Source: Candidatus Poseidoniales archaeon (GTDB lineage Archaea; Thermoplasmatota; Poseidoniia; Poseidoniales; Poseidoniaceae). Taken from it: a stretch of DNA of 35,760 bases. A model generated the notes under the pieces. The model was not told the DNA's origin, made no database searches, and saw only the letters and a list, made by a program, of their open reading frames with translations. A program made the translations under genes and the position numbers. This document shows, one piece after another, positions 12,599 through 25,090 of the stretch (position 1 is the first letter of the stretch; each line of letters opens with the position of its first letter). The stretch spans positions 21,932 through 57,691 of the forward strand of contig DUDM01000059.1 of assembly GCA_012959275.1 (NCBI GenBank), read 5' to 3'.

Positions 12599-15500
12599 TT
12601 AGAATTCATCATCGCCGCCAAGCACAGACATCAAACTGCTTTGCTCTGCTTGCCTTGATTTTGCTTCTAGTGTACGTCCACGGCCTACCATGAATACAAC
12701 TCCACCCAAAGAGAGAGTTAGTAGTAGAATTCCAACAGGTAGAGAGTAAGTAGCAATTGCAGCAGAAGTCACGTCCCAAAGTGGGCTACTTGACTCCAAG
12801 TCGTTTGGAACAGCCTTAATATTATCATTTTCATTTGATTCAACAATTTCATTATCAGGGTCCATGACGACTGAAACTGAGTGGCTTCCAGCATCTACTG
12901 GCCATAGTAAGTATATCTCGATTGGTTCAGCTTCGCCTGTGCCATCAGGTGGCATTAATGCCCCAATTACCTGCTTGAATACAATATTATCTTCATCACA
13001 GCCATTCTTTCGAATATCAGTTGTATCTTGACCTTGACATAGAACAATGACTACATCGGTAGCGTGAACATTGCCGCTGTTCTGGATGAGTACTCTAACT
13101 GGGACGAATTCTCCAACGTCTGCACTAGTTTGCTTTTCTCCAACTTCAACTTCAACAATTTCAAGATTTGGTGCACGGAGCCTTATGGTGACTACTTGTT
13201 CATTAGTATCGTCCATATCTCCTTGCCAACTTGGACTATCATCATGATCTCCGTTAACCTCGAACATATCACCATTCATCGAAGTAACCTTCAATCCAAT
13301 GGGTCTTGTATCAAGTTTTGCGCTTGGTGAAACCTGTATCAATGCCCTCATAGTAATCGTCTCATATGGGTCCATTGTCGGCATTTGGAATTCATCGATA
13401 TCTTCGAAATAAATACACTTATCTGGGTTTTCTGCGACTATATTGCTATCAAGAATCGTTAGTGTTAGGCAATCAACTTCAACCTCTGGTTGGGAGTTAT
13501 CAGCATTCAAAACAATCTTCCAAACTACATTCCATTCATCAAGAGAGCCCATTCCTGGCGCCTCCTCGAACACCCATTCACCATCGGTGCGGCTTGCGGT
13601 ATGGTTGAACAGAGATGGCGTATCTGCTACGTTTCCTGCATTTGTTATGTTGACTGTGAAGCGTACCAATTGCCCTGGGGCTGCCGTCTTAATTTCTGTG
13701 TCAGTGGTTGGGTCAATACTAATTTGCATATCGTGGAATTCAAGCACATTGACAGTAATAACAAGGGTATCTCTAAGTTTAGTAGAAGATGGTCCTGATT
13801 GTGGATATGCTTCTTCACTGAATATTTCAATGACTACTGCATACTCTCCCTTTTCTACCCTCTCTGGAACATGGATACCGATATCTAGTTCCTGAAATGT
13901 TCCTCTCTCTAACTCGGCCAATAATGAACGTGGTACTTCGATATTCCATAGTACATCGGTGCCTTCAGCATTGGTAACTCTTGCCAATCTCATATCATAT
14001 CTATCTGCACCATTGCCCTCATTTGTGGTTCTGACTGTGATTATCCTATCATCACCTGGGTTGACATCTATGCGTGGATCTGAAATATCGCTAATCTCTT
14101 CATCCATAGTTATAATGTCTAAATCATAAACATGAACGACATTAGTTGAAAGAATAACTGAATCGGATACTCTTGCATGTCCATCTAAATGTGCTTTGAT
14201 AGTCACGGCTGGTCCAAGACCTGCGCTAGCATTGGTTGGAGCACAAACTTCGACCTTTACCTTGTAAATGGTGTCCATTGTAAAGCGCCTCTTACCATCT
14301 CCATCAGGATCTGCTGGTGCTTCGGAAAAGTCTAGGTTGACGGTCCAATGATCCCTCTTCCAAACCAATAAGTCAGTTCCCTCTGGCATTTCTTCAGGTG
14401 CCCCGGGGGTAGTGAAAACTAGCCATCCATCAGAGAAATGCTTAGTTACTGATATTGGATAAACTGCACACGCACCAGGGAGAATATATTCAGTTGTGTC
14501 AAATATTTCAAAGACAATGTTACCCGTTGATCTTATACTAACATTTATCCATAATTCAAGAACATCGTATGTTCCTTGAGCAATACTCTTGATAGGTTCA
14601 CCAACTGACCAGCCCTTAACATAGAGAACAAAGGTTCCTGGCTCTTGGGTTGTTGGGATTTCTACTTTCAAGTTCTTGGTAGTAGATTGCCCTGGGTCTA
14701 ATTCAACCTCGATTGGGAAGTCTACAGACCAACCGAATGGAAGGAGCCATTCTTGTTGTCCTTCAAGGGTTGTAGGGTCATAGAATGCAAAGGAGTCGTG
14801 TACATTCCCCGTATTGGTAATAGTGATTGAGAAAATTGCCGTTTGCCCTTGTTCTACATCTGCCATTCTATGACTAGTATCAAGATTTATTCCATGCACA
14901 ACGTCCATTAAAGTTAGAGTTAACCTTTCCGAGCGGATTGCTGGGTCCTTATGGCTAGTAGCAATGACTGAGATTTCAGCTAATTCGTCTCCATTCGCTT
15001 GATAGATAGATGGCGCCCTAACTCTAAGGTAGAATCTTGCATCTTCTCCTCCAGATAGGAAGATTGGTGTTTCGGGAAAAATTGCCGTGTGGTTATTGGA
15101 GAAGTATAAGGTTGCAGTCCAATTGGCTGGTACCTCTGATAGATTTAGTGAGTAGGTGTCTGCAACAAGGTCAACTGGCCCAGGTGTTGAATTGTTAATC
15201 GTCATGTTGTAGGTAGTTTGCTCGCCCGGTTCAATTACGTGATAGTAAGTCTCACCCTCTCCAAACTCAACATCAACCTGTCCCGTGAGAATATGTGTAT
15301 AACAAAGGGTGAACATGTTGTTGTTGCCTTCTTCACCACATTTATTGGTATCAGTCCACGCTATATGCGCTCCACTTCCAAGGTCATTTGCAAATGCGGG
15401 TGGTTGCCCTAGCCCTGGCCATTTAGGAGAACTTGGACCTGCCTTATTTGATTGCCAATGAGTTACAACAACCGGCTCCCAAGCATCCAATGCCGTTTCT

Positions 15501-17602
15501 CCAGGGCCAGTTAAATCCGTTGCATTAAGGCGCACATATTGAATCTCTTCAGCAGCACTCACATTCCAGAAATCAAGCCAAGCGATATGCACTTGGTTCT
15601 GGTCGTCAGTCAATAATTCGGGGTACATACTGTTAGCAGCATACTTGTTATTTTGCGGTAATGCTGCCTTTCCTTCGACATTGGAAATGGGGGTATCCTC
15701 TATCTTCTTGATTGCATAGGTGGACAAACCTCCAGGCACTCCGTCCCAATCGCCAGCCCCACGTAGGCGTAGTTTTGTGTAGTAGACTTCGTAAGATACA
15801 TCCTTTTCAAAACCATAATCACGACCATCCATCCATGCGATGTGAGTATTCCCTTCCAAATCTACTCCGATTGAAGGGTGGAATGAATATGCATCGTCAA
15901 TTGTTATTCTTGTATCGTTAACGGCCACAAGGCCGCCGATATCTTCGTAATAATTTCCGTTGCTGACGGTTGTTCCACTGAAACCATATTGGAAGGAACC
16001 AGAGTCAATTTGACTATATGGATCCAATACAGACATGTAAATCTCACGCGAATTATTTGTTGAAATATAGACCATTGCTTCTGCTAAGAGGGCCATTTGT
16101 GCTGTACCACTTCCTGAAGATGGGAATTCGTAAACTTGCCCACCGGCGTCACTATTGGATAATGTAGTCCCTGGACAACTCCTTGTGTGGGTTCCTTGAA
16201 CTCCGTCAGAACATTGTGCTAGGTCTCTGAAATGTGATTGAACGGCTGAAGCCCCTCCCCATGATTGCCCATATAGGCCAACTGGAACTACCCCTGCTGT
16301 GATGCAATTATCATGTGCCTCGACAATAGAAGCGTGGTCATCAGATTGACCGGCTGGGTCACCATCTTTTGGTCCCTCATCCGAAATTGGGATTACAATC
16401 TTAGTAGCATTTGGATTCCATCGGTGATCTGCAGAGGTTGGTGGGTTTGCAGCGTATCCAACGTTTCCATTTGCATCTGTCCAAGAAAGGCAAGCCCAAT
16501 TTGAACCGGGGCCCCAATCTTCTCCTGAATATCCTGAATATGCTGCACCATTGTAAATTGTTCCTGGAAGTTTTCGGATTCCTCCGCTGTCATCTCCACT
16601 GCTAAGGTGTGAGTTTCTTGGTCCAGCATTCTGGTTGTGGTTAGCACAATTTCCTGAACTTGCAGCACTAGGTAAGTAGCCTCCCAATCCATATAGTGTT
16701 TCGAAAACAGTCATGTTGGCTTGTTCAAGCATTGGTTTCAAGCCCTGGAAGTTTCCACCACCAGAACTGAATGAACCCCCATAAATCACGGTGCATACAT
16801 CTGCCCATTCAGAATACATTGAACCTGAAGTATCGATTACGAAAACCAACTCTACTTTACCACCACGGGTATCATCCCAGGCGATTTGAACAAAGTCATC
16901 GGCGTCAACGACGATGTCTGGATGACCCTTATGGCCAATAACTGGAGTCAATAGGGTATCATCGAAAACGGTTATTGCAGCACTCTGTCCATAATCTGGT
17001 TCCAACATTGCATAGTAAATCTGCGGTTGTTGATAAAACCGGTCCAATTGGTCGTAGGAATCCTCCCACGAAATATGTACATTGTCCTTACTGTCTATTG
17101 CAAGGGTTGGCCAATCTCTGTTGTGAGCTCTTTGAGCAACTAATGTATCTTCTATAACGGTGATTGTTCCATCACTGCTGGCGCTACCATCTCTATCATC
17201 AAGCCATGGATTGAGTACTGTGTAAACAATAGAATGTTGTCCACCTTTGTCTGCCCAAACAATGTGGACTCTATCCATACTATCTACTGCAACATCTGGG
17301 TGCCACGCTTTGGAGCCTCCGTTGTTGGAAATTTGTGTTGGAGCAATTAGAGTTTCACTGCGTGGGTCGAGCATTGTGTAGTACAGTTGGCGAGTGTTTT
17401 GTGAATATACTACGTGAATATTGCCTTCAGAGTCCGCAACTAATGCTATCATTCGGTTATTAGCGCCATCATCAACCAGTTGAACTGGATCGGTTATGAC
17501 AACCAAACTTGCTTCTGCTTCGGGAATTGGTATCATCGTAGCAAAAACTGATGCCATCATCAGTATAATCATCAGGTAGGATTGGTTCTTCTTGTTTAAC
17601 AT
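12599..17602 (-). CDS. Giant surface protein with VWA domain and C-terminal membrane anchor
   Basis: About 1667 residues from the ATG at 17602, which has GGAG upstream; the frame can also start at a GTG at 17620. A signal peptide (LMIILMMASVFATMIP) is followed by repeated segments of the type HIVWAD, HISWEDS, QIAWDDT and HIAWMDG, which look like propeller blades. A von Willebrand A domain is inserted, with the MIDAS motif DTSGS starting at about residue 257. The second half holds a series of NEW3/CARDB-like beta domains marked by NTGNVHDS, NEGNGADRY, NAGNVADT and NSGNVHATD. The end is a transmembrane helix (LPVGILLLTLSLGGVVFMVG), basic residues and a short acidic tail, so the protein is held on the outer face of the membrane. 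Likely role is adhesion or binding of polymers; ligand unknown. Confidence 0.85.
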   Translation of the reverse strand: MLNKKNQSYLMIILMMASVFATMIPIPEAEASLVVITDPVQLVDDGANNRMIALVADSEGNIHVVYSQNTRQLYYTMLDPRSETLIAPTQISNNGGSKAWHPDVAVDSMDRVHIVWADKGGQHSIVYTVLNPWLDDRDGSASSDGTITVIEDTLVAQRAHNRDWPTLAIDSKDNVHISWEDSYDQLDRFYQQPQIYYAMLEPDYGQSAAITVFDDTLLTPVIGHKGHPDIVVDADDFVQIAWDDTRGGKVELVFVIDTSGSMYSEWADVCTVIYGGSFSSGGGNFQGLKPMLEQANMTVFETLYGLGGYLPSAASSGNCANHNQNAGPRNSHLSSGDDSGGIRKLPGTIYNGAAYSGYSGEDWGPGSNWACLSWTDANGNVGYAANPPTSADHRWNPNATKIVIPISDEGPKDGDPAGQSDDHASIVEAHDNCITAGVVPVGLYGQSWGGASAVQSHFRDLAQCSDGVQGTHTRSCPGTTLSNSDAGGQVYEFPSSGSGTAQMALLAEAMVYISTNNSREIYMSVLDPYSQIDSGSFQYGFSGTTVSNGNYYEDIGGLVAVNDTRITIDDAYSFHPSIGVDLEGNTHIAWMDGRDYGFEKDVSYEVYYTKLRLRGAGDWDGVPGGLSTYAIKKIEDTPISNVEGKAALPQNNKYAANSMYPELLTDDQNQVHIAWLDFWNVSAAEEIQYVRLNATDLTGPGETALDAWEPVVVTHWQSNKAGPSSPKWPGLGQPPAFANDLGSGAHIAWTDTNKCGEEGNNNMFTLCYTHILTGQVDVEFGEGETYYHVIEPGEQTTYNMTINNSTPGPVDLVADTYSLNLSEVPANWTATLYFSNNHTAIFPETPIFLSGGEDARFYLRVRAPSIYQANGDELAEISVIATSHKDPAIRSERLTLTLMDVVHGINLDTSHRMADVEQGQTAIFSITITNTGNVHDSFAFYDPTTLEGQQEWLLPFGWSVDFPIEVELDPGQSTTKNLKVEIPTTQEPGTFVLYVKGWSVGEPIKSIAQGTYDVLELWINVSIRSTGNIVFEIFDTTEYILPGACAVYPISVTKHFSDGWLVFTTPGAPEEMPEGTDLLVWKRDHWTVNLDFSEAPADPDGDGKRRFTMDTIYKVKVEVCAPTNASAGLGPAVTIKAHLDGHARVSDSVILSTNVVHVYDLDIITMDEEISDISDPRIDVNPGDDRIITVRTTNEGNGADRYDMRLARVTNAEGTDVLWNIEVPRSLLAELERGTFQELDIGIHVPERVEKGEYAVVIEIFSEEAYPQSGPSSTKLRDTLVITVNVLEFHDMQISIDPTTDTEIKTAAPGQLVRFTVNITNAGNVADTPSLFNHTASRTDGEWVFEEAPGMGSLDEWNVVWKIVLNADNSQPEVEVDCLTLTILDSNIVAENPDKCIYFEDIDEFQMPTMDPYETITMRALIQVSPSAKLDTRPIGLKVTSMNGDMFEVNGDHDDSPSWQGDMDDTNEQVVTIRLRAPNLEIVEVEVGEKQTSADVGEFVPVRVLIQNSGNVHATDVVIVLCQGQDTTDIRKNGCDEDNIVFKQVIGALMPPDGTGEAEPIEIYLLWPVDAGSHSVSVVMDPDNEIVESNENDNIKAVPNDLESSSPLWDVTSAAIATYSLPVGILLLTLSLGGVVFMVGRGRTLEAKSRQAEQSSLMSVLGGDDEF

Positions 17603-17733
17603 GGTCAACACTCCATTCACAGTGTTTCAATGCCTCTGTTCTTCTTACTTAACCGCGCCCCTTAGATGTCATTAGAGGGTGCTGGGTATCAGCCTTGACC
17701 GGTGGGGATTACAGTCAAAAGGGTGGACGCTTT

Positions 17734-18357
17734 TCAAGCCCATTCTGAAGGGTCAAATTCTGCCCCAAAACTGCCTGATTCATCGAACTCCACCTGTTCT
17801 TTCGGTGTATTTCCTGTTGACACGGATTTCCTCTTTTTCTCAAGGTCATCCACTGGGCCTGGCTTACCTACTCCCGGACCATAGTTATGCTTGATTTCGT
17901 GAATAAGTGCTAATTTTGCTAACCATAGTCTCCTCATACTTTGCATTAATTCATTCTTGTTCAATCCATCGAGCCAAATTGGTAGACTAACATTGAATGC
18001 TTGTAATGGGGCTGGTTCCTTTGAGCCTTTTTCACCTCCAACGTGGATTGCCCAATCTACCATTGCACCGGTTAAAGTCAAACGAATGTCATGGATCCAT
18101 TCTAACCACATTTCAGGATCTTGACTCAGGTGTTTGGTCATCTCCTGTTGTTGTCCAATATCAACTCTGGTAAAACTAGAGACTGCAACAAGGTCACGAC
18201 CTTTTGGTTTGATGACGGCAAACATGTGACCATGAGGTCCAGGTGGATACCGTAGAAGCCAATGCCCTTCGGCTCTCTTATCATCTTGTTTCTTTGGCTT
18301 CAAACCTTCTTCAATCAACCATTTCTCGAGATTGTTGACTAAGTCATCGCTTGACAT
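17734..18357 (-). CDS. Small conserved cytoplasmic protein (possibly DUF2299-like)
   Basis: A 207-residue protein without signal or membrane segments. The N-terminal 150 residues resemble a compact alpha/beta domain beginning with a Leu-rich helix (LVNNLEKWLIEEGLKPK), then WLLRYPPGPHGHMFAVIKPK and a strand-rich centre. This general layout recalls the archaeal DUF2299 proteins, but I am working from memory of the pattern and cannot confirm it. The last 50 residues are polar and low in complexity, probably disordered. It follows the acyltransferase gene by 53 bases on the same strand and may be the last gene of that run. Function unknown. Confidence 0.65.
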   Translation of the reverse strand: MSSDDLVNNLEKWLIEEGLKPKKQDDKRAEGHWLLRYPPGPHGHMFAVIKPKGRDLVAVSSFTRVDIGQQQEMTKHLSQDPEMWLEWIHDIRLTLTGAMVDWAIHVGGEKGSKEPAPLQAFNVSLPIWLDGLNKNELMQSMRRLWLAKLALIHEIKHNYGPGVGKPGPVDDLEKKRKSVSTGNTPKEQVEFDESGSFGAEFDPSEWA

Positions 18358-18410: not shown

Positions 18411-19991
18411 TTAAGACTTGATTTCTTGAAGAATTGAAGTGGTTAACGAGACCAATTTCTCGCCTTGTGAATCTCTACTTAATCGCCTTCTCCTTATTGC
18501 TTTCAATGAATCTTGTAAATAATCCCACATTAGTATATTCACCCATGCAACCACCCAAAAAATTACAATTATTATTGCTGTTCCAAATAAGATTGTTAAC
18601 CCCCAACCGATATATCCATTATATGCGAATGAAGGGAGGTAGGAGATTATTTCTGGTGAAATAATAGGGATTGAAAATATAATGCCTAAGGTGATGAAAG
18701 GCCAAAGAAGTAATGAAACAAACATTGCAACCATAAATTGGAAAGTTGTCCTTGCATCTAAACCTTCATCAGTCTTATTTCCTAATTTATATCCAAGAAT
18801 AGATTGAGCACCACAACTTATAATGAAAATTGGTAGGGTTAGTAAAGAAAGAAGCAAAATTGGGATTCTTGCTATCCCAACAAGTGGGTTTGCTTTGCGC
18901 AATTCTCCGGAGATTGTCAAATCCCTGCCATCTAGGCTCTTTTGGTATAAAATATCGGCAGCAGAATTTGCTTTTTTCATTAATAGGTCATCCCCTTCAA
19001 TAGGCAATTTGTCTCTTTCTTTTCTAGCGTCTAGTACTTCTTCCCTCCAATCATTTGGGGTCTTTCCAATGGCTCTATTGCGCAAATGTCCAAGTAAGTG
19101 CCAGGCTCTATTTGTTGACCAATTTGGTGCGTTTGGGGTTAGGGGTGCTAATTTTTCCTCTAAGTTATCTCTCAAAGCACAGACTGATTCAAAGTCGGGC
19201 TCTTTCCAACCACCACTTTCCAATCCCTCCTTCAATTCTTTAGATACTGCTTTTTCTGGAATGGTGATTGAATCACCATATTCTACCCAGCAATCAGTCC
19301 TCCAATGATGCCTGACTCGAAAGTGAAGGCCGACTGGCTGCAAAACGGGGCGTGGTCTTGACTTAATATCACTCAAAGCGGCGGCGGTGATGATTGTCCT
19401 CATCGGCCCAGTTCGTATTCTAAGCAAATGTGCTTCATTATGGGATGTTCCTTCTGGGAAAAGGGCACTGGCATAGCCTGTAGAAATTCCATCCGCTAAT
19501 GCGCGAAGGCTCCTACCATTGAGGAATGTTGCTGCTTCCTCAGAACACCCACCTCTGACCAATTCGGCTTTTCTGATTACTGGTTGAACGGCAAATTTTC
19601 TGGCCCACCAACCAAGAACAGGGCGAAGAACGAGGTCGTGTCTTGCACCAACAATGGCCTTTTTGGGATGTGTAAGTATCACAAGAAGTGGGTCCATCAC
19701 TCCATTTGTGTGCCACGCCGTACACAATGTCCCTCCTTTAGAAGGGATTTTTTCCTTTCCTGAAACTATCAGGTTTCGAAATTGTACTTCTTTCGTTCTA
19801 TTCAAACAAAAGTACCCGAAGCTCATAAAAAGGGAAGAGCCTGGATATTTTCCTTTGAATTTAGGGGCTGGTAGATTCAGTAATTTTTCATACTTTAAAT
19901 CAGCAGACCTTTTCGATAAAGTTGGTAAGGCTTCGCCATGGTGATCTAAAGCACCATCTTTACCTACTTTCATCTGTGAAGAATTCGACAT
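18411..19991 (-). CDS. Glycerolipid acyltransferase-like (PlsC/SCT1-type) membrane protein
   Basis: A 526-residue protein of the lysophospholipid/glycerol-phosphate acyltransferase superfamily. The catalytic block is AWHTNGVMDPLL, with His94 and Asp100 separated by five residues (HX5D). This is the spacing seen in yeast SCT1/GPT2-like and some Bacteroidetes members rather than the common HX4D. The second block FPEGTSHNE at about 178-186 binds the phosphate of the acceptor. The C-terminal third has about four transmembrane helices (about 370-395, 413-440 and 455-495) and a basic tail. The ATG at 19991 is used; a GTG at 20000 directly abuts the HIT-gene stop. Such enzymes make ester lipids in bacteria and eukaryotes, so the substrate in an archaeon is an open question. 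Confidence 0.85.
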   Translation of the reverse strand: MSNSSQMKVGKDGALDHHGEALPTLSKRSADLKYEKLLNLPAPKFKGKYPGSSLFMSFGYFCLNRTKEVQFRNLIVSGKEKIPSKGGTLCTAWHTNGVMDPLLVILTHPKKAIVGARHDLVLRPVLGWWARKFAVQPVIRKAELVRGGCSEEAATFLNGRSLRALADGISTGYASALFPEGTSHNEAHLLRIRTGPMRTIITAAALSDIKSRPRPVLQPVGLHFRVRHHWRTDCWVEYGDSITIPEKAVSKELKEGLESGGWKEPDFESVCALRDNLEEKLAPLTPNAPNWSTNRAWHLLGHLRNRAIGKTPNDWREEVLDARKERDKLPIEGDDLLMKKANSAADILYQKSLDGRDLTISGELRKANPLVGIARIPILLLSLLTLPIFIISCGAQSILGYKLGNKTDEGLDARTTFQFMVAMFVSLLLWPFITLGIIFSIPIISPEIISYLPSFAYNGYIGWGLTILFGTAIIIVIFWVVAWVNILMWDYLQDSLKAIRRRRLSRDSQGEKLVSLTTSILQEIKS

Positions 19992-20000
19992 AAGGTTCAC

Positions 20001-20441
20001 TCATAATTTGTTTATTTTTTCTGATAATGTTGCAAGGGCGGAAAAATCCGGTTCAACAGACCCAACGGGGGGTGCGTCGGGCCACATCGAAAGTAAACTC
20101 CCGCCTCCATCTCCTTTTTGTCTAGGAATAATATGAACATGAAGATGGGATATTTCTTGACCTGCAAGAGGGCCATCGTGGATAACAATAGAAAAATCGG
20201 CCGTATTAAAAAAAATACCTAATTTTCTTTGAACTTCTACAATTCCGGTCAGAAGTGATAGCATTTGTTTTTGTTGAATATCTGAAATTCTCTGTGCCTG
20301 TTGATGGGGGACTACGAGTGTATGTCCTGCTCTTCTAGGGTTAATATCTAAAAACGCTGACCAATCTTCTCCTTTTGCAATAAATGAGGCTGGAATCTCC
20401 CCATTGATGATTTTTGTGAAGAGACTTTTCCCTCCGCTCAT
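20001..20441 (-). CDS. HIT-family nucleotide hydrolase/transferase
   Basis: A 146-residue histidine-triad protein. The N-terminus SLFTKIINGEIPASFI and the middle INPRRAGHTLVVPH are standard, and the active-site motif HLHVHIIP is complete. HIT enzymes of this branch (Hint/HinT-like) hydrolyse AMP-lysine, AMP-NH2 or similar phosphoramidates. The open frame extends upstream to an ATG at 20531, overlapping the flavoprotein gene by 25 bases. I prefer the ATG at 20441 because it gives the usual family N-terminus, although no Shine-Dalgarno is visible. The gene ends in TGA immediately before the acyltransferase start region, which suggests translational coupling. Confidence 0.9.
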   Translation of the reverse strand: MSGGKSLFTKIINGEIPASFIAKGEDWSAFLDINPRRAGHTLVVPHQQAQRISDIQQKQMLSLLTGIVEVQRKLGIFFNTADFSIVIHDGPLAGQEISHLHVHIIPRQKGDGGGSLLSMWPDAPPVGSVEPDFSALATLSEKINKL

Positions 20442-20506
20442 AGAGTGGGCTAGGGTTGGGGGTTGAAGTGGTTTCTTCGCGGTTTTTTCATAAAGGGTTG
20501 TGGAAA

Positions 20507-22147
20507 TTATGCTTCTGGTGCTAAAATCCATACCCCACCAACACTCATTCTGATAGGTAAATTTGATACATCTCCTTCCATTGAAACCAGACTATGCTTC
20601 AAACAATTATCATCATCCCGCTGTTCATTATCGCTTCGTAGGTGTGAGCCGCGACTTTCACATCTGAATAGAGCGGCAGATGTTGCCATGTGAGCAAGAA
20701 GACACGCATTCTCTAGCCTTAATGCTTCTAACAAATTAGTATTCATCAATAAACTACTATCCTCAACATTTACAGTTGTAGAAATTTCCTTGAGTTGAGC
20801 AAGCCCTGCTAAACACTTTTCCATTGACTCACCGTCTCTTTGTAGGGACATTCCCGCATTCAATTCACTCCTTAAACTTGAACGTACGGCACCAATCTTA
20901 GAAGAATCTGAATCATTTAGTAAGCGATCATTGATGTTCGCTTCGACTTCCTGCCTTGATTCCTCAAGCAATGAAGAAGGAGCGGCTTTGTTAGCAGCCG
21001 CCCATTTTCCAGCATGGTTTCCAGCATCACGGCCACTGAGCAAATCATCAAGCAGCCTATTTCCCCAAGCCATTGAAGCACCGTGGAAACCACTACTTGC
21101 TGCATCTCCAACGGCATAAAGCCCAGACATCCAATTTCCCCATTCCCCATTCACGGCTCTTCCATGTTCATCGACAGGTATTCCACCAATCGTTGCTGAA
21201 ACTGCTGGTTGTATCGGAATTACATCGCTTCCAAGTTCTAGTCCTGTGCGTTGATTCAATAATGAAATTGTGTGTGCATACCACGTACTTCCATCCCCTG
21301 AAATGTGCCTTGAATCCAACACGCAGCCTGTTCCTTCTGCTGTCATGGCTACGGCAATTTGGGTTGGGGAGAGGCTTCCCTCCACTCCTATTGCTTCTCC
21401 TGTAGGAGAAATGACACTTCCTCCGTTTGCTAAAAGGCCGTTTGGTAAGTTTAAATTTGTACCAGCAACATTGAGGGGGGACCAAGATTGGAATTCCAAG
21501 TTCCTCAAAGCAACACCGGCTCTTGCAGCAATCGCCATACCGGTTCCACCATTACTTACGCCATTCCATGCCCCTTCAAATCCGGCATCTGCTAAGATGA
21601 TGGCTTTGGCTTGAATTACATCAATTCGACCTCGGGATAAGTCATAGTAAACTAGCCCTCTAATGTGTGATGCTTCAACAATCAACTTGAGTGGAAAGCA
21701 TTCTCCTCTACGGTGAATATTATCTCTAATACATCTTTCTTCTAAGACCTGTTGAACGCCGCGTGTAGTTCCATCTCCACAACCTGAAACTCTTGGTGTT
21801 GTATGGCCTAATCCTGCGAAAGAGTGTGGTAATCCAGCGGAATCTCGACGGAAAACCAACCCCCATCGTTCAAGTTCAGCGATAATTGAGGCTGCTGAAG
21901 AGGCTCTCGAAGAAACAATATCTTGATCACATAACCAACCCCCTGTGCGAATTGTATCGTCTCGGTGTCCTTTAGTTGTGGACTCTTGAAGTGAAGCGGC
22001 AATTGCGTTCTCTGCTAAGCCGATACCTGAATGGCCAAGGCCTCCTTCACTCAACAACATTGTCCGGGCGCCTCCACTTGTCGAGGCTAAAGCCGCCCTA
22101 AGTGCCGCTGGACCATCTCCAACAACCAATACATCCCAATATTCCAA
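20507..22147 (-). CDS. SDH/fumarate reductase/NadB-fold flavoprotein with altered active site
   Basis: A 546-residue FAD protein with the fold of succinate dehydrogenase A, fumarate reductase A and L-aspartate oxidase. The Rossmann motif VVGDGPAALRAAL is at 8-20, the second FAD segment GGIPVDEHG at 321-329 and GLYAVGDAAS at 342-351. The C-terminal helical domain ends with ESRGSHLR, as in SdhA. The dicarboxylate-binding residues are gone: HGANR is HGASM (Met359 for Arg), PRDVVAR is replaced near PTQIAVA (about 261-267), and FHPT is replaced by SWSP (221-224). It therefore probably acts on something other than succinate, fumarate or aspartate. The TTG start is fixed by AGGAGGG six bases upstream. 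No iron-sulfur or membrane SDH partner gene is nearby. Confidence 0.82.
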   Translation of the reverse strand: MEYWDVLVVGDGPAALRAALASTSGGARTMLLSEGGLGHSGIGLAENAIAASLQESTTKGHRDDTIRTGGWLCDQDIVSSRASSAASIIAELERWGLVFRRDSAGLPHSFAGLGHTTPRVSGCGDGTTRGVQQVLEERCIRDNIHRRGECFPLKLIVEASHIRGLVYYDLSRGRIDVIQAKAIILADAGFEGAWNGVSNGGTGMAIAARAGVALRNLEFQSWSPLNVAGTNLNLPNGLLANGGSVISPTGEAIGVEGSLSPTQIAVAMTAEGTGCVLDSRHISGDGSTWYAHTISLLNQRTGLELGSDVIPIQPAVSATIGGIPVDEHGRAVNGEWGNWMSGLYAVGDAASSGFHGASMAWGNRLLDDLLSGRDAGNHAGKWAAANKAAPSSLLEESRQEVEANINDRLLNDSDSSKIGAVRSSLRSELNAGMSLQRDGESMEKCLAGLAQLKEISTTVNVEDSSLLMNTNLLEALRLENACLLAHMATSAALFRCESRGSHLRSDNEQRDDDNCLKHSLVSMEGDVSNLPIRMSVGGVWILAPEA

Positions 22148-22153
22148 TCAAGA

Positions 22154-22160
22154 CCCTCCT
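22154..22160 (-). promoter_or_regulatory. Shine-Dalgarno fixing a TTG start
   Basis: AGGAGGG on the minus strand ends six bases before the TTG that begins the flavoprotein (TTG GAA TAT TGG). The next in-frame ATG would remove the FAD-binding GxGxxA motif, so the non-ATG start is well supported. Confidence 0.7.
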
Positions 22161-22231: not shown

Positions 22232-23749
22232 TTACATAGTTCTAACCAGTTGCCGCGCTCTACGTAAGCGGGAACGTCTATTTTTATCTCCAGCACCAAT
22301 TCTTTTCTGGACCTTTGTATGAATGACCATCGACTGCAATACTTGGCTATTTTCATCCTTCAACGAAACTGATAACTGACGTAAACCACTCACTCCAGAA
22401 GACCAAGTAATTTTCAACCACAATACTACTGTTCTATCAAGATAGTGTGCCATCCATTGAATTGTGTCTTCCTCTCCAGAAGTGTTACTCAATGGAAGTG
22501 AGGTTTTTGGTGATGAACAGGCCGGCACCTCAACTGAAAAAAGATATGCATCAGGCATTCCCCCTGGGAGGATTACATCAACCCTGACCTTCTTCGATTC
22601 AGCAGTTTGGTTGTGCAAGAAAATGAATAATCCACCTTGACCGTCGGTACTGATATGATCGCATTCAGCATCCATTCTCCAACCTTTATTTACAATCGAA
22701 GCACTATGATCGAGTAAGTCCATTTGTAGTCGGTCAATTAAATTAAAGAAAATTGGTTGCCAAGCTTTAGCGTGAGCAACTAAACGGTGAAGTAAGTTCA
22801 AGGATATTTCTGCTTCTTTATCAAACAATAATTCCTCGCACCCGCCTTTATATAAATCCGATAACTCAGCGTCAAGCCCTTCTCCATCAATTAATCCCTG
22901 TTGTGATAGGTGAACAATGTAGAGAACTCGTTCTAAGGCTTCGCCTTCCTCTACACCCTCTTTTAAAAATCCAGAAAGGCGACGGCGCCAGGCCTCCCAT
23001 CTCATTCTTAATGCTGGGTCTAAATGGTTAACAACAACTTCACTCAAAGTTCGGTGGATTTGAGTGGGGTGATGAGTGGGTGCATGTAGTGATAAGAAAG
23101 GTTCTTCATCCTCAAGGTGATCAAAAGATCCCGCGGTAAATTGGATGTGGAATGACATGGCCAAACCAGCAGTAATGGTTAGCATTAAGGTCATGTTCCA
23201 AGCAATTTCAGAAACAGGTGTGAGGGTAGTAAATGTCATAAAAAGCACTGCTAACATTCCTAAAATAAAGTGGAGAAAATTATTTCGTCTAACATCTATT
23301 AATGAATCAATTATCCTATCACTACCAGGCTGTGCTTTCAAATTCTGACCTCTTCTCTTAGCATGTTGATTATGTAATGAGGCGCCTCTTAATGCCCATT
23401 CCGCTGCTGCAGTAGATGGCCCAATTGCAACGAGGAATAATGTCAACCACACAAAAAGAACAAAAAATGTTGAACGTGGTGCGTATTGGGGTAAGATGAA
23501 TCCGGCTATTGCAGCTAGAGTAATCAGAATGCCAAAGCCATTTCTCCACATACGCATCGGCCACCACATCAATAGTTGACCCCAACTTAGGCGTTGAGAA
23601 TTTGCAGTGTCTAACATTTCCTTTACCTTACTTACACTTGTATTACCGGGTAATGATTCGTTTGAATAGGGGGTTGGGAGAGGCGGGGGTGAAAGTCCTT
23701 TTCCGATACCCATGTTTTTGTGGGAAAGGGTTCCTATTGATGGTGGCAC
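22232..23749 (-). CDS. Four-helix membrane protein, function unknown
   Basis: Up to 505 residues from a GTG at 23749. An ATG at 23713 gives a 493-residue form, and an ATG at 23617 with AAGGTAAAGGAA just upstream gives 461. The proline-rich N-terminal stretch (LSPPPLPTP) is lost with the last start, so the start is unresolved. Two hydrophobic hairpins are seen, with helices at about 74-92, 95-115, 162-183 and 188-208. A long helical cytoplasmic part, a beta-rich domain (about 370-470; FIFLHNQTAESKKVRVDVIL) and a very basic C-terminus (RRSRLRRARQL) follow. I do not recognise the family. It lies 84 bases before the flavoprotein gene on the same strand, at the head of the five-gene run. Confidence 0.7.
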   Translation of the reverse strand: MPPSIGTLSHKNMGIGKGLSPPPLPTPYSNESLPGNTSVSKVKEMLDTANSQRLSWGQLLMWWPMRMWRNGFGILITLAAIAGFILPQYAPRSTFFVLFVWLTLFLVAIGPSTAAAEWALRGASLHNQHAKRRGQNLKAQPGSDRIIDSLIDVRRNNFLHFILGMLAVLFMTFTTLTPVSEIAWNMTLMLTITAGLAMSFHIQFTAGSFDHLEDEEPFLSLHAPTHHPTQIHRTLSEVVVNHLDPALRMRWEAWRRRLSGFLKEGVEEGEALERVLYIVHLSQQGLIDGEGLDAELSDLYKGGCEELLFDKEAEISLNLLHRLVAHAKAWQPIFFNLIDRLQMDLLDHSASIVNKGWRMDAECDHISTDGQGGLFIFLHNQTAESKKVRVDVILPGGMPDAYLFSVEVPACSSPKTSLPLSNTSGEEDTIQWMAHYLDRTVVLWLKITWSSGVSGLRQLSVSLKDENSQVLQSMVIHTKVQKRIGAGDKNRRSRLRRARQLVRTM

Positions 23750-23941: not shown

Positions 23942-25090
23942 TTAAACTGTAAGAGCCCATTTCTTGCCGATTTCAGAAATCTCGTGAAGTAGTTTTTCGA
24001 TTTGAATACGGTGGTGCATGCTTCTTGGAACCGAAGCATCACAACGGGCTAAGACATCCAATAACTCTGCTAACGCACCTTCTGGAAGTAGCAATCTTCC
24101 TCTAATTAGCAATTGATGAATCTGGTCAATAACGTCTTCAGCAGCCAAGGCGTGTTTCATCATTAATTCGTCTACTCTTCCCATTGCCCCTTTCAAAGAG
24201 CGGACATTCTTGCCCGTGCTCGATTTTTCCCAATGCCATTCATGGATTCTACCCCTTAAAGACAATTCAAGAAGTTGTTGCACGGGGGTTAAGGTTGTTG
24301 AAGCAACTAAATTGTGCAAAGAACTTCTATCTGTTGTCCTTTCTGCCCTGATTAGTAATTCTGATAGGAAAATTCCTTTTCTTAAATTACCTGAAGATAC
24401 ATGGATTATATCTCCAAGTAAACCCTCAGTGAGTGTATGTTTTTCTGATTCTAAAATAAGTGAAATACATCTCTCCATTTGTTCATTAGATGTGCTTGGA
24501 ATGCGAATAGATTGGCATCTTGAGCGTAAGGCATCAAGAATTCTGCTTGGGGCTCTAGCAGTGAAGATAAATCGTGAGGTGTGCGCTTCTGATTCCATCA
24601 TTCTACGGAGATATGATTGGCGAAGTGCTCCAAGTTTATCGGCATCTTCTATTACAATTAATCGTGCCACTGGTGCGCGGGTTCGTCCTGCAAGTAAGAT
24701 GTCGTTTTCTGAGCCTGCGGGTGCGATGTCTCCAGATTCAGTTTTTACTATACCTCTATCAAATGCATCTAAACTCGAAGTTCCAGCAAGAGAGCCTGCT
24801 TTTCCTGATCCACCCGGCCGAAGGAAGTCTTCGAATTTTTTCATTGCTCCTGCAGTCCTCGAGAGGTCTCGGGCTTGTAAAATATGGGTGGTGTTTTTCC
24901 ATCCTGGACCTAGAACCTGCCTTGCCACTAGCCTCCAAGCCGCGGTTTTTCCAACTCCAGATGGGCCTGCAATCAATATGTGGGGGGGGCTTGACGATAC
25001 GGCAGCGGAACCTAGAATTCGGCAAATATCAAGGGGTATAGCAAGGTCTTCAAAGCTCTTTGGAGCATGGGTTTCAAGCCAACTCGCCAT
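23942..25090 (-). CDS. Divergent RFC small-subunit-like clamp-loader ATPase
   Basis: A 382-residue AAA+ protein of the replication factor C / DnaX family. The Walker A motif GPSGVGKT is at 42-49 and the start MASWLETHAPKSFEDL matches the family entry (W...Y.P..l.di). The arginine-finger SRC motif is present in ILDALRSRCQSIRI, as is the C-terminal collar. Two things differ from a normal RfcS of about 320 residues. Walker B reads VIEDADKL instead of LDEAD, and a Gly/Ser-rich insert of about 45 residues lies between the first helices and Walker B (about 95-140). It may be a specialised or third clamp-loader subunit rather than the main RfcS. The gene is divergent from the rhodanese lipoprotein gene. 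Confidence 0.85.
   Translation of the reverse strand: MASWLETHAPKSFEDLAIPLDICRILGSAAVSSSPPHILIAGPSGVGKTAAWRLVARQVLGPGWKNTTHILQARDLSRTAGAMKKFEDFLRPGGSGKAGSLAGTSSLDAFDRGIVKTESGDIAPAGSENDILLAGRTRAPVARLIVIEDADKLGALRQSYLRRMMESEAHTSRFIFTARAPSRILDALRSRCQSIRIPSTSNEQMERCISLILESEKHTLTEGLLGDIIHVSSGNLRKGIFLSELLIRAERTTDRSSLHNLVASTTLTPVQQLLELSLRGRIHEWHWEKSSTGKNVRSLKGAMGRVDELMMKHALAAEDVIDQIHQLLIRGRLLLPEGALAELLDVLARCDASVPRSMHHRIQIEKLLHEISEIGKKWALTV

Follow-up and report, generated by a model that had tools for sequence, protein, structure and literature searches.

An order-wide SdhA/FrdA-type paralogue of Poseidoniales that has lost the dicarboxylate site and may no longer be an oxidoreductase

Introduction

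The closest described systems to the protein analyzed in this work, hereafter P0001, are the complex II flavoproteins SdhA and FrdA (TIGR01812, TIGR01176; PDB 6awf, 1kf6, 9fq7), with which it has in common a two-domain fold and a C-terminal helical domain, and L-aspartate oxidase, NadB (TIGR00551; PDB 1knp, 2e5v), to which it is alike in fold, in length and in having no Fe-S partner gene. In eukaryotes, and in a different branch of the FAD fold from SdhA, the GDP dissociation inhibitor/Rab escort protein (GDI/REP) has the fold of an FAD enzyme, has lost the FAD and now acts as a protein-binding chaperone. To our knowledge, no pseudo-oxidoreductase has been described earlier for the SdhA branch.

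Five residues of FrdA, H232, T244, R287, H355 and R390, have catalytic roles according to PMC5773532. Unlike SdhA/FrdA, P0001 lacks the covalent-FAD His, the catalytic His, Thr, Glu and Arg, and a nearby SdhB gene, and its family has a shortened capping domain and unconstrained FAD-contact sites. Unlike NadB, it lacks the dicarboxylate site that NadB and SdhA share, and it scores 198 bits against the NadB cut-off of 453. The gene lies in a 35,760-nucleotide stretch of Poseidoniales DNA (the window), whose features are collected in Table 1.

Results

Re-reading of the sequence bore out the ORF, its strand, its Shine-Dalgarno-led TTG start and the motifs HGASM, PTQIAVA and ESRGSHLR as given in the first-pass annotation; Shine-Dalgarno-like sites also precede many of the orthologues. 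Pfam recognizes FAD_binding_2 (1e-36) and Succ_DH_flav_C (2e-24), and the top NCBIfam model is TIGR01812, with 290 bits against a curated cut-off of 567; indeed, every NCBIfam score lies far under the curated cut-offs. The AlphaFold2 model, for which 60 orthologues were used as input, has a pLDDT of 92.2 and a pTM of 0.92, and its top Foldseek matches in the PDB are complex II SdhA/FrdA (TMq about 0.9, 24-26% identity over the structural match). On the basis of the predicted structure the SdhA/FrdA fold is certain, and the two Pfam domains together with the overall fold place P0001 in that superfamily. Urocanate reductase and 3-ketosteroid dehydrogenase were rejected as closest relatives, the profile E-values being 1e-15 and 3e-6, respectively, vs 1e-83 for FrdA.

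Table 1. Coordinates in the window of P0001, of its sequence elements and of the surrounding genes.
Feature	Position	Strand	Basis or remark
P0001, SdhA-fold protein, 546 aa	20507..22147	-	ORF; Pfam; AlphaFold2; Foldseek; alignment A1
AGGAGGG, Shine-Dalgarno-like, before the P0001 TTG start	22154..22160	-	6 bases upstream of TTG
Dinucleotide fingerprint G10-D-G-P-A-A15	22103..22120	-	Ala in place of the third Gly; no variation at G10 and A14
Former QFHPT segment, now S221-W-S-P-L225	21473..21487	-	alignment; His lost, Thr replaced by Leu in 62/69
Shortened capping-domain segment	21314..21388	-	catalytic Arg (FrdA R287) lost
HGASMAWGN (355-363)	21059..21085	-	H355, G356, G362, N363 kept; catalytic Arg replaced by Met359
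Predicted membrane protein, 505 aa, C-terminal sheet domain	22232..23749	-	directly upstream in 112/117 loci
RFC-small-subunit-like AAA protein, divergent	23942..25090	-	two genes upstream in 94/117 loci
HIT-family protein, triad HLHVHIIPR	20001..20531	-	downstream; next gene in 93/117 loci
PlsC-like acyltransferase domain protein	18411..20000	-	PF01553 1.6e-9; synteny
DUF2299 protein	17734..18357	-	PF10061 8e-15; synteny

Residues were aligned on E. coli SdhA, FrdA and NadB and on their same-class relatives, and the dicarboxylate site was scored as FrdA H232, T234, T244, E245, R248, R287, H355 and R390, all of them invariant in the references used. P0001 retains 0/8 of these residues and its 69 orthologues retain 5% of them on average, whereas 99-100% are present in the same-class controls (29 SdhA, 17 NadB and 8 Frd). 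The loss of all dicarboxylate residues that had been noticed in P0001 therefore holds family-wide, and the observation is stronger than was claimed, because it is valid across an order. In the alignment HGANR is replaced by HGASM and PRDVVxR by PTQIAVA; FHPT is replaced as well, but the aligned segment is WSPL (222-225) and not SWSP as first read, a one-residue shift. The His of PTAHY(T/C)xGG, missing from the first-pass list, is also gone (S317).

The old pocket positions have become mostly aliphatic: that of FrdA Arg390 is L, M, I, A or V in 61/69 family members, that of Arg248 (R249 with Met1) is Leu in 65/69, and that of Thr234 (T235 with Met1) is Leu in 62/69. That of T244 (T245 with Met1) is Pro in 57/69. 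The Met359 column, whose conservation had been proposed as a check, varies among the Poseidoniales orthologues (L, M, I, A, V), and Met359 as a new catalytic residue is thus ruled out. In the family alignment no conserved residue stands in for Arg390, His355 or His232, and no new conserved set of residues takes the place of the old dicarboxylate site. Where FrdA has the acid E379 (E380 with Met1), the family shows D, G, R, E or other residues, with R predominating in the second family of the order. The NadB substrate residues Arg386, Arg290, His244 and His351 are replaced in P0001 and unconserved across its family. Only 10 of the 45 columns that are invariant in 57 reference proteins are kept (eight Gly/Pro/Leu, one His and one Asn), with 2/18 for the polar ones. 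The charged and aromatic residues that the family does conserve, many of them specific to it, include E2, W4, E55, R100, R101, E136, Q138, R146, R147, Q179, K181, W289 and R300. The arginines R101, R119 and R300, which might stand in from nearby positions for the lost ones, show no or almost no variation.

The flavin-binding side was analyzed at 31 FAD-contact positions, which we take to be those annotated for FrdA in UniProt and which were checked by conservation in the SdhA, NadB and Frd controls only. Their mean entropy in the P0001 family is 1.97 vs 1.77 for all columns, and the share of random position sets equally conserved is 0.87. The same share is 0.0000 in SdhA, NadB and Frd, where the contacts are strongly conserved (entropy vs background 0.08/0.60, 0.32/1.08 and 0.22/0.70, respectively, in the same-class controls). 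Identity to FrdA at these positions reaches 0.58-0.80 in the controls; in the P0001 family it is 0.26, hardly more than the 0.22 of the remaining positions. Such a pattern argues against canonical FAD binding by the family. The first-pass description of the FAD-binding motifs as intact is acceptable for the N-terminal GxGxxA, GG, HG and GN elements, which are kept in most members (G10-x-G-x-x-A, G321-G322, H355-G356, G362-N363), but not for the contact positions as a whole. P0001 itself carries S33-E34 and G347-D348, and is in this respect more FAD-like in look than most of its orthologues. Most family members lack the acid with which strand 2 typically ends in FAD/NAD-binding proteins (S24 A19 E8 V7 of 69). 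The covalent-FAD His (FrdA H44) is Gly in P0001, and its column reads G25 D17 S12 T7 N3 Q2 in the family, His not being among the common residues; the loop aligned with FrdA 44-52 ranks with the most variable parts of the family and has the lowest model confidence in the N-terminal domain (pLDDT block means 79 and 66).

In the capping domain the interval corresponding to FrdA 260-315 has a median of 24 residues in the P0001 family vs 40 in Frd, 50 in NadB and 70 in SdhA; the conserved D278, W289 and R300 are located in this domain. The C-terminus is shorter in the second family, many members of which have lost the C-terminal ESRGxH motif.

A class-wide search found P0001 orthologues in 116/125 sampled Poseidoniales genomes, from both families of the order (one match being a truncated piece); the class has a third family, f3, whose 21 genomes gave none. 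Of the nine Poseidoniales genomes without an orthologue, eight lack the neighbouring membrane gene too, which suggests that the missing orthologues are assembly gaps. In a search of 84,980 species genomes, the record titles of the best 80 matches name Poseidoniales, marine group II or Euryarchaeota, with the exception of one Deltaproteobacteria record. This record, 'Deltaproteobacteria bacterium AH-558-G13' (L098, JAOMAZ010000009.1), matches the P0001 locus at 94% identity and shares its neighbouring genes; most likely it is a single-cell genome of Poseidoniales, from the genus of the window, under a wrong label. In the phylogenetic tree the P0001 family is monophyletic (100% SH-aLRT) and apart from SdhA, Frd and NadB. 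The dN/dS values of 14 close pairs range from 0.04 to 0.10, that is, strong purifying selection, as expected of an old gene that still functions. Literature searches turned up no description of the family.

The same genomes also hold ordinary SdhA, and some of them NadB and Frd, with all eight substrate residues. The SdhC/A/B set of the genome of the window lies on another contig (C10), in agreement with the first-pass remark that no SdhB, C or D gene is near P0001; no separate NadB was found in this genome. In several other genomes a real NadB co-occurs with a P0001 orthologue, and this finding, together with the low scores, shows that the homologues of P0001 are not plain aspartate oxidases.

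The usual gene order in 117 loci is RFC-like AAA, membrane protein, P0001 orthologue, HIT, acyltransferase, DUF2299. The membrane protein had no Pfam match and nothing usable in NCBIfam, PDB sequence or Foldseek searches, its weak Foldseek matches being generic Ig-like sheets. It is absent from two genera (g17 and g22) which retain the P0001 orthologue, and is thus not an obligatory partner everywhere but a candidate only. It represents a hitherto undescribed family of Poseidoniales, which has paralogues elsewhere in the genome (L222 4626-6224, L223 4114-5916 and L224 5174-6670) and for which the Pfam, PDB sequence and fold searches found no relatives beyond these; two of the paralogues adjoin genes for a DtxR-like regulator and a large secreted protein with repeats. 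The true start of the HIT protein is probably internal (MSGGKSLFTKI...). A role of P0001 in defence was discarded, as PADLOC gave no match for it and the match of the HIT neighbour to ThsC (6e-10) is a generic HIT one.

The PlsC-like acyltransferase belongs to this fixed cluster order-wide, and possibly bears on the open question of the membrane lipids of Marine Group II; it deserves attention in view of the PlsC homologues known from Marine Group II, in which glycerol-1-phosphate dehydrogenase is missing (PMC6962369). Our guess is that the cluster is tied to lipid or envelope biogenesis. In the window the last gene of the cluster, on the same strand, encodes a secreted protein of 1673 aa whose repeats are of the adhesion/anchor type (choice-of-anchor T, DUF11-like; 12599-17620). 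In a few genera of the second family a gene for a secreted FG-GAP/VCBS-like repeat lipoprotein is inserted just 3' of the P0001 orthologue (L055, L057, L061, L168, L172, L063 and L171).

Discussion

The conservation pattern fits a protein that gave up flavin chemistry but kept its fold and its interaction surfaces better than it fits one with a new substrate. On a slender balance of probability, P0001 would be a non-redox 'pseudo-oxidoreductase' subunit, a Poseidoniales paralogue of the SdhA/FrdA type, and we favor this reading over that of a flavoenzyme with a new substrate. According to it, an ancient SdhA/FrdA-type paralogue would have given up the role of dicarboxylate oxidoreductase, flavin redox chemistry at the ancestral site would very probably have ended, and the protein would now be a subunit with a structural or nucleotide-responsive role. 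E2, W4, R100, E136, Q138, R146, R147, Q179, W289 and R300 might form the surface through which it contacts a partner, and the likely partners would be encoded in the same cluster, i.e., the upstream membrane protein, the HIT protein and the acyltransferase. As counterpoints, nucleotide binding may be retained, given the kept GxGxxA, GG, HG and GN elements, and a site may have been re-formed from R101, R119, H61, D278, W289 or R300.

Less probable, though to be taken seriously, is the idea that P0001 is still an FAD enzyme acting on a different, probably apolar or non-dicarboxylate substrate, in a pocket that uses other residues and tolerates variation. It would agree with the kept fold and dinucleotide fingerprint, with purifying selection, with the conserved capping-domain residues, with the GD that P0001 itself keeps at 347-348, and with three pocket positions which are not random but fixed as Leu or Pro (62/69, 57/69, 65/69). 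However, the FAD contacts vary like the background, unlike those of all three control families, nothing conserved replaces Arg390, His355 and His232, the FrdA E379 acid is Arg or Gly in many members, and no gene of the cluster is, by the Pfam domains of the neighbours and by synteny, an evident candidate for an electron-acceptor partner. With Met359 and most of the replaced positions unconserved, the flavin contacts unconstrained and the capping domain, with its proton-donor Arg, shortened, the first-pass view that a new substrate is likely is not supported.

Improbable, in our view, is a sensing or regulatory role towards the neighbouring membrane proteins, in which P0001 would bind FAD, NAD, ADP or another nucleotide but carry out no redox turnover. 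A HIT-family gene (of the nucleotide hydrolase/transferase type) adjoins, and the Rossmann GxGxxA is largely kept while the isoalloxazine-side contacts are not, but the putative binding has against it that the strand-2 acid is mostly absent. Even more doubtful is a flavin-free carrier of lipid or prenyl chains, an archaeal counterpart of GDI/REP whose former dicarboxylate/flavin cleft, now an apolar pocket, would serve the PlsC-like acyltransferase and the membrane protein; the lipid biosynthesis of Poseidoniales is known to be unusual.

It is very unlikely that the order owes its NadB or SDH activity to P0001 as a diverged but otherwise ordinary aspartate oxidase or SdhA: the best family models are indeed those of SdhA/FrdA and NadB, and the genome of the window gave no separate NadB, but the scores far under every curated cut-off and the intact copies alongside (complete NadB and SdhA in other genomes, separate SdhC/A/B in the same one) contradict this, and all the substrate residues are missing. 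Lastly, a decaying pseudogene, to which the lost active-site residues and the shorter C-terminus of the second family might point, is refuted by the dN/dS values and by an ancient ORF open across the order in fixed synteny, in keeping with the absence of decay argued in the first-pass annotation.

Conclusions

In the surface ocean Poseidoniales belong to the most abundant archaea, and we know of no cultured member. P0001 is a core gene throughout this order and, as far as searched, restricted to it; its automatic annotation as a succinate dehydrogenase/fumarate reductase flavoprotein is likely, though every residue for the reaction is gone. If the pseudo-oxidoreductase reading is true, this would be, as far as we know, the first one described of the SdhA branch, and it would be an error of metabolic reconstructions to count P0001 as complex II or NadB.
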